IMG/VR virus record: IMGVR_UViG_3300033049_000177
Coordinates: 1-22,582 of that record
Length of the DNA stretch: 22,582 bases
Strand: one strand, 5' to 3'
DNA from: a virus
Position numbers and translations under genes: made by a program. Shown piece by piece: positions 5,513 through 22,582 of the stretch. The number at the start of each line of letters is the position of its first letter. Position 1 is the stretch's first letter. Below the pieces are notes generated by a model. That model did not search any database. It was not told the origin of the DNA and saw only the letters and a program-made list of their open reading frames with translations.

Positions 5513-7006
5513 CTACTGAATATTAACACCTTGGTTCTTAAGTATTTGCGTCATCTCTTGAACGCTAATCCCTGCTTTTTGCGCAGCCTGCTGAACATCA
5601 GATGTTGTACCTGTTGATCTACTTAGTTGCGCTGGTGATTGTTGCACGGCATTTGGATTAGCGTGAAGCTTGGCTAATTTACTTGCCTTGACTGCCGCTC
5701 CAGACATTATCTTCGAAATCTCACTTAAGTTAGCTTGTAAAGTTATTGGGTCAAGATTTATATCTAGATTAGCTATAGAGGTTGCAAGGCGTTGACCTTC
5801 TGCATCAGTTAAAGCCCCCAAACCTCTCATTTTAGCAATTTGGTTTAAAAATACTTGAGATTGCAGGGTCTCAATCTGCGATGCAAAAGTTTTTTGAGAT
5901 GAACCCGGTACTTTAGCTAAAATTCCAAAACCGCCAGCAGTGCTATTTAAACCTTTAAGATCATTTGCTAATTTAGCAGCCAAGGTCGAAGCACCAGCCG
6001 CACTTTTGGCAGAATCCTCATAACCTAGAGCTTTTTCCATACGTTCAGCTTTTTGAATTTGAGTTTCACTGCCTTTCACCTGTGACTTTAATACAGTGCC
6101 GTTTTTATCTGAAACAGCAATTCCTTTACCACCAGGATAAACGTTATATCTTGTCCCATCTGGAGCCGTAAATTCATCAATCGGTTTATTTTTAGCAATC
6201 CAATCTGCTAATTTTTGCTCTTCAGTAAATTGGCTTTGCTTCTGTATACGATCCTTGTTTGCTGTTTCAGCGACAGTTTCAATTCCTAGAACTTTTGCTT
6301 GATTGTCGCGAATATTATTTGTATTACTCGCTTCATTGTTGGCAACGGTATTTGCCTCAGGTGTCAAATACTTGATTGGATCTGAAGCCCCAAGTAATCC
6401 ATAGCTTTTACGAATATTCTCAAAAGCATCTGAACCACCTTGATTATTTGCAGCTAAATCGATCAATTGAGCTTTTGTTGCTTCAATAGTTTCAGGTGGC
6501 AAACCATATTGTGAACCCAGAATCTCTAATTTTTTTGCAGCATCTGTGGCATCTGTAGACGTAGCAATTAAATTGGATAGTAAAGTTTGCCCTTTTTGAG
6601 TATTTCCTAATTTTTTCTCACCTGACTCCTGATACAACTTCCCTGTTTCAGCATTAGTTTTATTGGTATCTGCATTAAACTTAATCGCATCTTGTTGAGC
6701 CTTTAATTTCGCTGCATTTTGTTGCTGAATCATCCCAGAAAGTGTATTCACCATTTCAGGTTGATATCTCTGATTGGGATTTGTTTTTACTGACTGCAAA
6801 GACTTATTTAAATCAACTTGACCATCTGCACCAGTATTTTGAGCGATCAATCGAGCTAAAATGCCCTTTTGCTGCTGTTGCTGAATCTGATTGCTGAACT
6901 GTTGGCCATTATTAAATGAGTTTGCTATGTCTTCAAATGAAAGGCCCTTATAGTTAGGGCCAATTTCAGGATTGAAATAAACAGGGATTGGATTTTGAGT
7001 CGTCAT
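5513..7006 (-). CDS. DNA ejection protein, gp20-like
   Basis: Predicted internal virion protein ejected with the DNA, 497 aa, close to the P22 gp20 size (about 470). It is mostly helical and rich in Gln, Asn and Ala, with an N-terminal poly-Gln patch (IQQQQQK near residue 45). A well-defined C-terminal helical region contains QVFLNQIAKMRGLGALTDAEGQ, a pattern I associate with phage ejection proteins. It has no catalytic motif or signal peptide. The order gp7-like then gp20-like then gp16-like is that of P22. The start has an AAGGTG site; the gene follows the gp7-like gene after a 12-base gap. Confidence 0.72.
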   Translation of the reverse strand: MTTQNPIPVYFNPEIGPNYKGLSFEDIANSFNNGQQFSNQIQQQQQKGILARLIAQNTGADGQVDLNKSLQSVKTNPNQRYQPEMVNTLSGMIQQQNAAKLKAQQDAIKFNADTNKTNAETGKLYQESGEKKLGNTQKGQTLLSNLIATSTDATDAAKKLEILGSQYGLPPETIEATKAQLIDLAANNQGGSDAFENIRKSYGLLGASDPIKYLTPEANTVANNEASNTNNIRDNQAKVLGIETVAETANKDRIQKQSQFTEEQKLADWIAKNKPIDEFTAPDGTRYNVYPGGKGIAVSDKNGTVLKSQVKGSETQIQKAERMEKALGYEDSAKSAAGASTLAAKLANDLKGLNSTAGGFGILAKVPGSSQKTFASQIETLQSQVFLNQIAKMRGLGALTDAEGQRLATSIANLDINLDPITLQANLSEISKIMSGAAVKASKLAKLHANPNAVQQSPAQLSRSTGTTSDVQQAAQKAGISVQEMTQILKNQGVNIQ

Positions 7007-7018
7007 AATATTTACACC

Positions 7019-7975
7019 TTACGAAGTTTTACCACCACCGCCATAGCGACCCGCTAAAGCGCCTATAGCAGATGATCCACTCTTAATAACATCATTTAGC
7101 ATCTGATTGTTTATGTCAGTCTTTTGGATTAAGCCATTAGCATTTGCACCTGCAGCGTTATAAAGACCTGTTGCTTGTGCATTTGCAGAATTTACAAGCG
7201 CATCCGCATTAAAGCCTGCGGAAGAGGTTAAGCCAGCTGCATTAGCATTTGCAGAGCCAAGTAAGCCTTGTGAGATCAATTGAGAAAGCGTGGTTTGATT
7301 GCCAGCAATATTAGAAGCATTGTTATACGTCATATTGCTCATATTGTTTGCTGCACTTTGACCTATTCCTGTGGTTGTTGCTAAACGATTAAATGCATTA
7401 GCCTGATCATTACCAAAGCGGTTGTAAGCGTTTTGATATTCTTGACTTGCGAGATCACTGTTGTAACCATTTAGTGCTTTGAGTGTTGCACCGCTGAGCA
7501 ATCCACCGCTTGCGGCTGCACTGGATTGGATTCCGTCCATACCTTGTTGCTTTCGAAATGCGTAACCCGGATCAGCATTAAAATCTGACATGTTAAATCC
7601 ACGTGTCAAACTGCCATCAGCTAAACCTTTTGAAAGTAAACCACTCGCTTGTGAACCTAAATTTGCATAAGGTTGTTGATATCCTAATGCAGAATTTAAA
7701 CCATTGGTTAAGGTCGCATTAGCTTTGTCATATCCTTCAGTGAGGTTGCTATTTGAATCAAGATAGCCTTGACTTAATAACCCTGAACCTTTTAATGCTG
7801 CATCTGATTGTAATTTACCTGCGTTTGTATAAGCCTCACTTTGAAGACCTGCAGCTTGATTTGCTGCTTGAGCTCGTTGTGCTGCGGCTTGTTTTGCAGC
7901 CTTTTTTGCTTTACTACTTCCATAAAGACTACTCCCGATTGATACTGCTGCGGTACCTGCTGCTACCCATGACAT
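7019..7975 (-). CDS. DNA ejection protein, gp7-like
   Basis: A 318-aa protein starting with a hydrophobic Gly/Ala/Ser segment (residues 3-22, VAAGTAAVSIGSSLYGSS) and a basic Ala-rich helix (KAKKAAKQAAAQRAQAA). A long low-complexity region rich in Asn, Ala, Gly and Ser with degenerate repeats follows (SANANAAGL, NSANAQATGLYNAAGANANGL). A conserved-looking core GYAFRKQQGMDGIQ near residue 135 is typical of gp7/p32-type DNA transfer proteins. The start ATG lies inside the end of the cupin-like gene (13-base overlap) with AGGAG eight bases upstream, so the two are probably translationally coupled. Function is taken from family and position. Confidence 0.75.
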   Translation of the reverse strand: MSWVAAGTAAVSIGSSLYGSSKAKKAAKQAAAQRAQAANQAAGLQSEAYTNAGKLQSDAALKGSGLLSQGYLDSNSNLTEGYDKANATLTNGLNSALGYQQPYANLGSQASGLLSKGLADGSLTRGFNMSDFNADPGYAFRKQQGMDGIQSSAAASGGLLSGATLKALNGYNSDLASQEYQNAYNRFGNDQANAFNRLATTTGIGQSAANNMSNMTYNNASNIAGNQTTLSQLISQGLLGSANANAAGLTSSAGFNADALVNSANAQATGLYNAAGANANGLIQKTDINNQMLNDVIKSGSSAIGALAGRYGGGGKTS

Positions 7976-21327: not shown

Positions 21328-22083
21328 TTATCCTTTAGGTTTTAATGTGTTTCCGCTTGCTCTGTTCAATAGCTCTTTGAGTGGATCAGAAATATCATGC
21401 TCAATTTTTTCTTTAAATAGGCCCATGTGTTGACCTACCAACTTCAAAGCAGCCATTTGATCATGCATTTTGATTTCTACACCTTCTTTTGTTTGCTTTG
21501 CGCCTGCATACAATAATTGAGCTGACTCACTTAAAGTTGAAGTATCTTCAAGATGTAAATAGCCCTTGCCCTCGCCATCACATGACGGGCATTCAGGATG
21601 AGGCGGCTTGGTTCTGCGAAATCCATACCCACCAACATCGGTTGGATAATTGGCCGAATAAGCTGGATCTTCTTTTTGAATTTCTTTTTCTTCGGCTATC
21701 GTTTGCTGTAAAGCATTCTCAAATTCTGCTTCATCACGCCACTGGTATTGATGATCTTCACCCCAACAGAAACGACAATTAACTAATTTGTGTTTAACCA
21801 GTTCTCTTGGATCAGCCGTACCAATAGCCCAAAGCCTTTGAAGAACATCTATCTGCTCAATGTGTAATTGCTTTGCTCGCTCTGATTTAAGAAACTCAAT
21901 TCTTTGTTTTACTTCTGGTCTACTAAATACAACAAAGCCATGCTGTTTTGCTGATTTTTCACTATATTTAGCTCTAATTGCGGCTTTAGTAATGTTTAAA
22001 TCAAATAGATACTCATTGCAGAACAATTCATGTTGATTGTTTTTTAAGGGCTCACTCCCTTTCGGAAGGTCAATATCTTCCAT
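21328..22083 (-). CDS. terS: Terminase small subunit with Cys-rich insert
   Basis: DNA recognition subunit of the packaging motor, 251 aa. The N-terminus has the helix-turn-helix pattern of this family: HELFCNEYLFDLNITKAAIRAKYSEKSA, then PEVKQRI (about residues 18-62). The middle carries CRFC (C103, C106) and CPSCDGEGKG (C165, C168), which together could bind one zinc ion and enclose a charged insert. The C-terminal helix MAALKLVGQHMGLFKEKIE (about 210-229) is the usual end of the family. Starts: ATG 22083 has GGGAGA seven bases upstream, so I prefer it to a TTG at 22098 that would lie in that site. The promoter driving it is not evident in the leader. Confidence 0.9.
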   Translation of the reverse strand: MEDIDLPKGSEPLKNNQHELFCNEYLFDLNITKAAIRAKYSEKSAKQHGFVVFSRPEVKQRIEFLKSERAKQLHIEQIDVLQRLWAIGTADPRELVKHKLVNCRFCWGEDHQYQWRDEAEFENALQQTIAEEKEIQKEDPAYSANYPTDVGGYGFRRTKPPHPECPSCDGEGKGYLHLEDTSTLSESAQLLYAGAKQTKEGVEIKMHDQMAALKLVGQHMGLFKEKIEHDISDPLKELLNRASGNTLKPKG

Positions 22084-22098
22084 AAATGAATCTCCCAA

Positions 22099-22127
22099 TT
22101 GATTAACTTCAAATCAAAACTTATAAT
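22099..22127 (+). promoter_or_regulatory. Plus-strand sigma-70 promoter, near consensus
   Basis: TTGATT (22099-22104), a spacer of exactly 17 bases, and a perfect TATAAT (22122-22127). It points away from the small terminase gene, opposite to all the genes in the window. Transcription would begin near 22134. Confidence 0.75.
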
Positions 22128-22133
22128 TATTAA

Positions 22134-22330
22134 TGCAGGAGCAAGGACTTCCCGATGGCTTGATGATTCAATGCACAGGGTTCCTGCCGTTAGGTAAGTT
22201 TTTGAACTCCTATTGACAGAAGCAGTAACCAGCCTGTAGTCAATCGAAAGAACGAAGGACGCCACCCAAAAAGAATCACGGCAACTGTGAAGTCTTTATT
22301 AGAAGCCCAATTGATGGGCTTTTATTTTTT
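22134..22330 (+). ncRNA. Candidate antisense/small RNA upstream of terS
   Basis: A stretch of about 195 nt framed by a near-consensus promoter and an intrinsic terminator on the same strand, in a gap with no supported protein gene. It holds several inverted repeats. GCAGGA (22135-22140) pairs with TCCTGC (22182-22187) and encloses CCC/GGG and a GCTTGA-TGAT-TCAA hairpin. ATTGAC (22212-22217) pairs with GTCAAT (22239-22244); TCAC with GTGA (22276-22290). TGCCGT (22185-22190) could instead pair with ACGGCA (22278-22283), giving an alternative fold. If late transcription of terS comes through this gap, the RNA is fully antisense to that leader. A trans-acting small RNA is the other option. It is not a tRNA, and I cannot assign it to a known RNA family. 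Confidence 0.55.
22303..22330 (+). terminator. Plus-strand intrinsic terminator of the RNA candidate
   Basis: AAGCCCA (22303-22309), a 5-base loop and TGGGCTT (22315-22321), followed by TTATTTTTT. The T-rich tail is only on the plus strand side; read on the minus strand the stem is followed by a mixed sequence. Confidence 0.85.
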
Positions 22331-22350
22331 CTGCATTACTTTCATCACCC

Positions 22351-22376
22351 AATAAAAAACCTCCCGAAGGAGGTTT
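22351..22376 (-). terminator. UUCG-loop terminator of the gene at the right edge
   Basis: On the minus strand AAACCTCC-TTCG-GGAGGTTT followed by more T (TTTTTTATT). The 8-bp perfect stem is closed by a C-UUCG-G tetraloop. It lies a few bases past the stop codon of the partial gene and converges with the plus-strand terminator. Confidence 0.9.
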
Positions 22377-22381
22377 AGTTA

Positions 22382-22582
22382 TTAACCAACTAACTGCTTA
22401 CGAAAGGATTTATGGATCATCTCTTTTATGTCATCTTCTAAGTTGGCTTCAAATATAAGAATAATACTTGCAGATTCAAATTCAAAAGACGACTTATCAT
22501 ATTCTTGACCAGATAGATAAAGTTCTAGATTCCCGCTATTACTTATATCTGAGAATCCAAATTTATCTCCACAAATATTTAC
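22382..22582 (-). CDS. 3' end of an unknown gene, cut by the window edge
   Basis: An open frame of 66 codons running from the window edge to a TAA at 22382-22384, with no internal start needed. The visible C-terminal part reads as a plausible soluble protein: a beta-like stretch (NLELYLSGQEYD), a beta strand (SIILIFEAN) and a closing amphipathic helix (DDIKEMIHKSFRKQLVG). I do not recognise the family. The strong terminator placed directly after the stop supports it as a real gene whose transcript normally ends before the terminase region. The 5' end and total length cannot be seen. Confidence 0.65.
   Translation of the reverse strand, partial: VNICGDKFGFSDISNSGNLELYLSGQEYDKSSFEFESASIILIFEANLEDDIKEMIHKSFRKQLVG

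Follow-up and report, generated by a model that had tools for sequence, protein, structure and literature searches.

A probable travelling small-RNA gene in Acinetobacter prophages

Background

Phage morons, of which bor and lom of lambda are the type, are autonomous units of promoter, gene and terminator that are expressed from the repressed prophage. Small RNAs that bacteria encode in trans base-pair with distant mRNAs, often with Hfq. In C4 antisense RNAs, loops a' and b' are complementary to a phage leader and its ribosome-binding site, and the RNA is cut out of a longer transcript by RNase P at GGW. The Group 1 small RNAs of A. baumannii belong to the C4 antisense RNAs (Weiss et al. 2016, PMC5320573). 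The small RNA svsR, encoded by prophage NC-SV of E. coli, limits phage infection (PMC12803456). We found C4 RNA (RF01695) in up to 23 copies per Acinetobacter genome. Outside the enterobacteria, few prophage small RNAs have been defined at all.

The DNA analysed here, hereafter the window, makes up a virus record of 22.6 kb (22,582 nt; IMGVR_UViG_3300033049_000177) from a phage that looks P22-like. All of its supported genes lie on the minus strand, and its packaging and head genes, on that strand, match the families of terS, terL, portal, scaffold and coat proteins. A first-pass annotation had read a candidate plus-strand RNA gene in the gap upstream of terS, and had suggested that its product is antisense to transcripts entering terS and could hold down the packaging genes in the prophage state, or act in trans on the host; the C4 RNAs were named as a possible affiliation. 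We show herein that this RNA gene recurs, with promoter and terminator, in divergent copies at many loci, and we weigh what it may do.

Results

An RNA gene in the gap upstream of terS

A gap of 300 bp separates terS (21328-22083) from the next gene upstream (22382-22582). The features in and around the gap are as follows.

21328-22083, minus strand: terminase small subunit, terS (ATG at 22083; Pfam Terminase_2, 5.6e-30; phrog_51, 2.7e-36)
22096-22348, plus strand: inserted cassette of about 253 bp, comprising the promoter, the RNA with its terminator, and a short spacer at the 3' end, with CCAAT/CCCAAT flanks (delimited by its absence from L004/L005)
22099-22127, plus strand: predicted sigma-70-type promoter, TTGATT-17-TATAAT, 6 nt 5' of the first conserved RNA base (-35 TTGATT, 22099-22104; spacer, 17 nt; -10 TATAAT, 22122-22127)
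about 22134-22328, plus strand: predicted RNA of about 195 nt
22134-22268, plus strand: conserved RNA core, 134 model positions (match of covariance model R2; 22-copy alignment A4)
22276-22290, plus strand: small extra hairpin 5' of the terminator, also present in the chromosomal-type copies L028, L030 and L041
22300-22330, plus strand: intrinsic terminator, a 10-bp stem (22300-22324) followed by TTTTTT
22357-22376, minus strand: terminator of the gene upstream of terS, abutting the cassette and also present in the cassette-less L004/L005
22382-22582, minus strand: gene upstream of terS

The sole open reading frame competing for the gap (22044-22265, minus strand, 73 aa) has no Pfam match and is not maintained in relatives. 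Taken by itself, the promoter of the window is within chance (2 promoter-like sites found versus 3.3 expected from shuffles), whereas terminators exceed it (3 versus 0.9). Among the 22 aligned copies, whose sequences are divergent, 21 have a -10-like hexamer (TATAAT/TAAAAT) 5-6 nt 5' of TGCAGG, 21 have a -35-like hexamer at a spacing of 17-18 nt from it, and 18 have an intrinsic terminator downstream of the core. Two of the copies that lack the terminator are L021, which is interrupted by an insertion sequence, and L045, which is truncated. The plus-strand gene of the first-pass annotation, with both its promoter and its terminator, is thus present and recurs; from its hexamers, the promoter looks constitutive.

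The element in L021 (8840-10113) is of the IS3 type (orfA/orfB, with an rve integrase core) and splits the cassette between core and terminator, leaving a naturally broken copy of the RNA cassette. When 22276-22330 of the window is compared with the tails of L028 and L041, a phage-type core is seen joined to a chromosomal-type 3' hairpin and terminator; by this comparison, the RNA genes are themselves mosaic.

Relatives and their distribution

A 32-nt probe led to a second phage, L016 (95.7% identity over 254 bp), shorter motif probes to L017-L021 and later L083, and a genome scan to copies in Acinetobacter genomosp. 15BJ, Acinetobacter sp. Ac_5812, A. modestus CCM 8639 and A. higginsii CIP 70.18. 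L023 and several gapped-pattern matches in genomes were rejected as chance matches in unrelated DNA. A first covariance model was built from eleven copies and refined to give R2, and alignment A4 holds 22 copies. With the covariance model, 23 related copies were detected across the window, the IMG/VR phages and Acinetobacter genomes, in keeping with the multi-copy character among prophages that had been supposed. R2 scored 146.8 bits (E 1.2e-30) on the core of the window, which is among the sequences from which the model was built.

The RNA was found by covariance model in 9 of 176 Acinetobacter species, with a patchy distribution and at most three copies per genome. None of 173 other Moraxellaceae genomes matched R2, so that the same nine Acinetobacter were returned among 349 Moraxellaceae genomes; none of 368 other gammaproteobacteria matched, and among 369 genomes of the class nothing new appeared. 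The stricter filters applied in searches of such breadth are liable to miss weak matches. BLAST of the window region against GenBank phages and plasmids gave no match, and BLAST with one relative gave short low-score matches only, apparently due to chance and mostly to the terminator. No Rfam family matched the RNA of the window or of the relatives, at gathering or at loose thresholds.

In several species, a phage remnant in the chromosome, which also holds a phage lysozyme gene, carries the RNA as a pair of copies. At L026 (1620-3468) and likewise at L028, L030, L033, L036-L041, L043 and L048, a small conserved gene cluster is bracketed by two RNA copies that differ in type. The cluster, found on the chromosomes of several Acinetobacter species beside the phage lysozyme gene, encodes an exported protein of the YSADDLF type and a 93-aa protein. 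YSADD-like proteins also flank the prophage copy L042.

A covarying fold with near-invariant unpaired motifs

The comparatively supported fold of the core comprises a 5' arm, a three-way junction and a 3' strand.

22135-22187, plus strand: 5' arm (compensatory changes in 2 pairs of H1 and 2 pairs of H2; per-copy folds)
22135-22141 with 22181-22187, plus strand: stem H1 in the 5' arm
22143-22148, plus strand: AAGGAC, nearly invariant in A4, bulged out on one side of the 5' arm
22151-22153 with 22178-22180, plus strand: pairing in the 5' arm between H1 and the apical hairpin H2
22160-22163 with 22168-22171, plus strand: apical hairpin H2 in the 5' arm
22188-22254, plus strand: three-way junction, CGTT (22188-22191) with AACG (22251-22254), enclosing two hairpins
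22192-22211, plus strand: hairpin H4 (22192-22194 with 22209-22211; 22197-22200 with 22205-22208)
22212-22244, plus strand: hairpin H5 (22212-22217 with 22239-22244) with inner stem H6 (22223-22225 with 22234-22236)
22245-22267, plus strand: near-invariant, mostly unpaired 3' strand CGAAAGAACGAAGGACGCCACCC (alignment A4)
22255-22260, plus strand: second AAGGAC, within that 3' strand

Over A4, 95.4% of cells were paired, and 16 of 35 pairs had changed on both sides, which bears out the expectation of compensatory changes in related copies. The clearest stem is H5, which reads AUUGAC/GUCAAU in the window, GUUACC/GGUAAC in L020, GCUUAC/GUAAGC in L047 and GUUUGC/GCAGAC in L049. Changes on both sides were seen in four of its six pairs, in two of the three pairs of H6, and in H4 in two of three outer and all four inner pairs. 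The junction CGTT/AACG was paired in 100% of cells; with two pairs changed on one side and zero compensatory changes, its support is weaker. An earlier structure with a GGGU/3' ACCC pairing was dropped, as the H4 hairpin and the CGTT/AACG junction fit the window type better. In some copies, GAGGAC replaces AAGGAC in the bulge of the 5' arm.

The 16 pairs changed on both sides compare with 10.0 when partners were shuffled and 2-6 when they were slid, and the covariation score of 0.278 with 0.120 and at most 0.067, respectively. As the 22 copies are related, these counts overstate independent events and the shuffle figures are not probabilities; slid partners, which preserve the relatedness of the copies, nonetheless scored far below the observed value. 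The 197-nt RNA of the window had a folding z of -2.64 (1 of 200 shuffles equally good), a signal that stems from the 3' hairpin and the terminator, while the 135-nt core alone (z -0.99; four relatives, -0.37 to +1.09) was not more stable than shuffles. For the window sequence, energy minimization gives a fold other than the comparatively supported one. Reading frames on both strands are disrupted among the copies by indels of 1, 2 and 4 nt. By sequence comparison, then, the RNA is real, since promoter spacing and terminator recur in divergent copies and the fold covaries strongly, which together place the gene far above chance; no frame is conserved.

Empty sites and many loci

In L004/L005, the terS site is empty. 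Their flanks match 22043-22095 (92%) and 22349-22582 (100%) of the window at adjacent coordinates, the gene upstream of terS is 100% or 99.6% identical, and 22096-22348 is cleanly missing. A second empty site lies at ninB, where L017 and L064 carry the cassette and L065 has none. At both sites the cassette has the terminator of the neighbouring gene on one side and the next gene's ribosome-binding site on the other. Between the window and L016, identity is 94% over the cassette together with the start of terS, and at least 94% over the cassette, yet the large terminases are unrelated (E 1.2).

Conserved copies near terS, as had been anticipated, do occur in L016, L019 and L021 besides the window, but the RNA is not confined to terS and many of its loci are without it. 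Copies lie at ninB (L017, L020) and, again in L020, between the portal and head protease genes; that of L018 adjoins a gene matching phrog_513, and that of L047 a gene for an Hdf/DarA-like protein. With further copies in L049, L083/L042 and L044, the loci include head, tail and other genes. The clean empty sites at terS and ninB and the copies beside other genes argue that the element is a mobile cassette and not a terminase leader.

The RNA is antiparallel to the gene on either side at all eight phage sites; a sign test worked out by hand gave 0.008 (two-sided, assuming independent sites). Such an orientation is to be expected where a unit brings its own terminator, because in forward orientation that terminator would be polar, and it suggests that the product is intended for the prophage state.

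Around the cassette at the terS site, CCAAT/CCCAAT is found at 22094-22098 and 22348-22352, and CAAT-like repeats together with AAAAAACC, the terminator of a neighbour, are seen at other sites, including L064/L065. These repeats may be marks of how the cassette moves. The protein encoded next to the RNA in L047 (1704-2855) weakly resembles Hdf-like antirestriction and DarA N-terminal proteins.

Discussion

Most of these observations suit a mobile small-RNA gene that serves its phage as a moron, and we consider it rather probable that a structured RNA made by the prophage acts in trans through its two AAGGAC contacts, to the benefit of the lysogen or the exclusion of other phages. The cassette is very probably, as judged from its copies, a travelling small-RNA gene whose family is absent from RNA databases. 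It has the moron traits that sequence can reveal, namely a promoter and terminator of its own and insertion at a junction where close relatives have the two genes side by side, and those of a trans-encoded small RNA, being non-coding and conserved in structure by compensatory change. In the integrated prophage, the constitutive-looking promoter would drive synthesis of a non-coding, structured RNA, some 195 nt long, that stops at its own terminator, and the gene would thus be transcribed in the lysogen. Read against the lytic genes, the unit would put no terminator in their way, and lytic transcription would yield none of the RNA. Action in trans, already raised as an option by the first-pass annotation, is retained here, as the fold is preserved through compensatory changes while the neighbours vary freely.

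Covarying stems around invariant unpaired motifs point to a host partner that stays constant, either an RNA reached through a short seed or a protein, and the two near-invariant unpaired AAGGAC motifs, in the 5'-arm bulge and the 3' strand, are the likely contacts with such a conserved Acinetobacter partner. Duplexes of the RNA with the start regions of the window's genes were no better than those of shuffled RNA, and the 13-nt complements of the two invariant segments, sought in 99 Acinetobacter genomes, were found in the RNA copies themselves and as three scattered single matches only. Pairing through short seeds is possible. As to use, prophage small RNAs that protect the lysogen, such as svsR, make a benefit to the lysogen or protection from competing phages the most probable guess by analogy.

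Instead of pairing with an mRNA, the RNA could be a decoy in which unpaired AAGGAC, of the ANGGA type, titrates an RNA-binding protein such as CsrA or makes a Shine-Dalgarno-like contact with the ribosome, a reading that we think unlikely and that is given some weight by motifs that are near-invariant while the stems covary, as befits a constant protein or ribosome partner, and by Acinetobacter genomes that hold no conserved long antisense partner. Sponges of the CsrB/RsmZ type carry far more unpaired GGA motifs than two, whereas the cassette RNA has just two (22143-22148 and 22255-22260) in place of the many ANGGA of an RNA that sequesters CsrA/RsmA. Moreover, the 5'-bulge motif is GAGGAC in some copies, and an rsmX match in the region was weak, on the opposite strand and outside the RNA. 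Similarly doubtful to us is a travelling family of RNA-only morons without any antisense target, whose two near-invariant AAGGAC would capture a conserved protein or ribosome component of the host, either to recruit or to sequester it.

That the RNA holds down terS and the packaging operon in the prophage, as a cis antisense RNA or by transcriptional interference, was the proposal of the first-pass annotation and is now very unlikely. The RNA does run antiparallel to the genes, starts about 50 nt from the start of terS, and opposes its neighbours at every phage site; the last of these is more simply explained by the polarity of a forward terminator. RNA and terS coding region do not overlap, and the same RNA lies beside ninB, head, tail and other genes, so that its sequence is not tuned to terS. 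Relatives that lack promoter and terminator and keep terS with its surroundings, the case that the first-pass annotation had named as its refutation, do exist, which, together with the other loci, contradicts a role specific to terS and leaves the RNA gene itself untouched.

A DNA element that has no RNA function, either a cos/pac site or a miniature transposable element, appears slightly less credible again. Cos sites are often located upstream of terS, and the cassette does move as one unit, but copies lie away from terS, relatives with the same terS are without it, the cassette ends show no inverted repeats nearby except an 8-bp pair of chance length, and covarying stems with a kept promoter and terminator are the signature of an RNA gene. 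A short translated leader or peptide gene is hardly more than a slim chance: a Shine-Dalgarno-like AAGGA stands at a good distance (7 nt) from an ATG, at 22155 in the window, that nearly every copy retains, the start of the peptide is similar in most, and many could encode M-x5-HRVPAVG, whereas translation of the window, L016 and L019 would stop after Met-Ala, a 4-nt insertion falls within the frame in L037, and the same bases are constrained by H1/H2 pairing, which covaries instead. Membership of the C4-type antisense RNAs (P1/P7; A. baumannii Group 1), which are likewise multi-copy and phage-derived in Acinetobacter (PMC5320573), is refuted, since RF01695 gave no match up to E 10 in the window region or at E 1 to 5 in the relatives, and R2 found nothing in the C4 loci, which differ strongly in sequence.

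With its clear family, comparative structure, covariance model and empty sites, the probable travelling small-RNA gene lends itself to tests of its effect by simple deletion or expression, in a genus, Acinetobacter, of clinical interest. If it protects the lysogen or resets a host regulator, phages would trade RNA genes like protein morons; if the RNA-only effector reading is true, the phages of one genus would exchange a pure RNA host effector instead of a protein gene.

Comparison with known systems

Like C4 and Group 1, the cassette RNA is a phage-derived, multi-copy, structured RNA of Acinetobacter. It differs in having no sequence or covariance-model match with C4 in either direction, and in distribution: the Rfam C4 model matches 146 of 175 Acinetobacter genomes, one per species, yet none of the cassette RNA copies, which occur in 9 of 176. 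None of its loops was found to complement a nearby leader, the early region of the phage lying outside the window. Pseudomonadales-1 RNA (RF03046) is another structured RNA carried by L017, where it differs from the cassette RNA in position (5882-6038 versus 7082-7218) and in sequence; its match there (E 5.5e-29) is followed by a tRNA-like gene with an odd anticodon at 6091-6166.

With svsR, the cassette RNA shares its encoding by a prophage, and svsR is a model for the effect to be expected, a lysogen less open to other phages; svsR is enterobacterial and has measured expression and phenotype, whereas the cassette RNA is known from sequence alone. The likeness to morons is that of an autonomous promoter-gene-terminator unit between phage genes that is absent in close relatives. 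Unlike the lambda type, its product would be an RNA and not a protein, and at the sites seen it is always opposite to the flanking phage genes. It is a new RNA family of a known kind, the prophage small-RNA moron, of which the literature may hold an earlier unnamed sighting.
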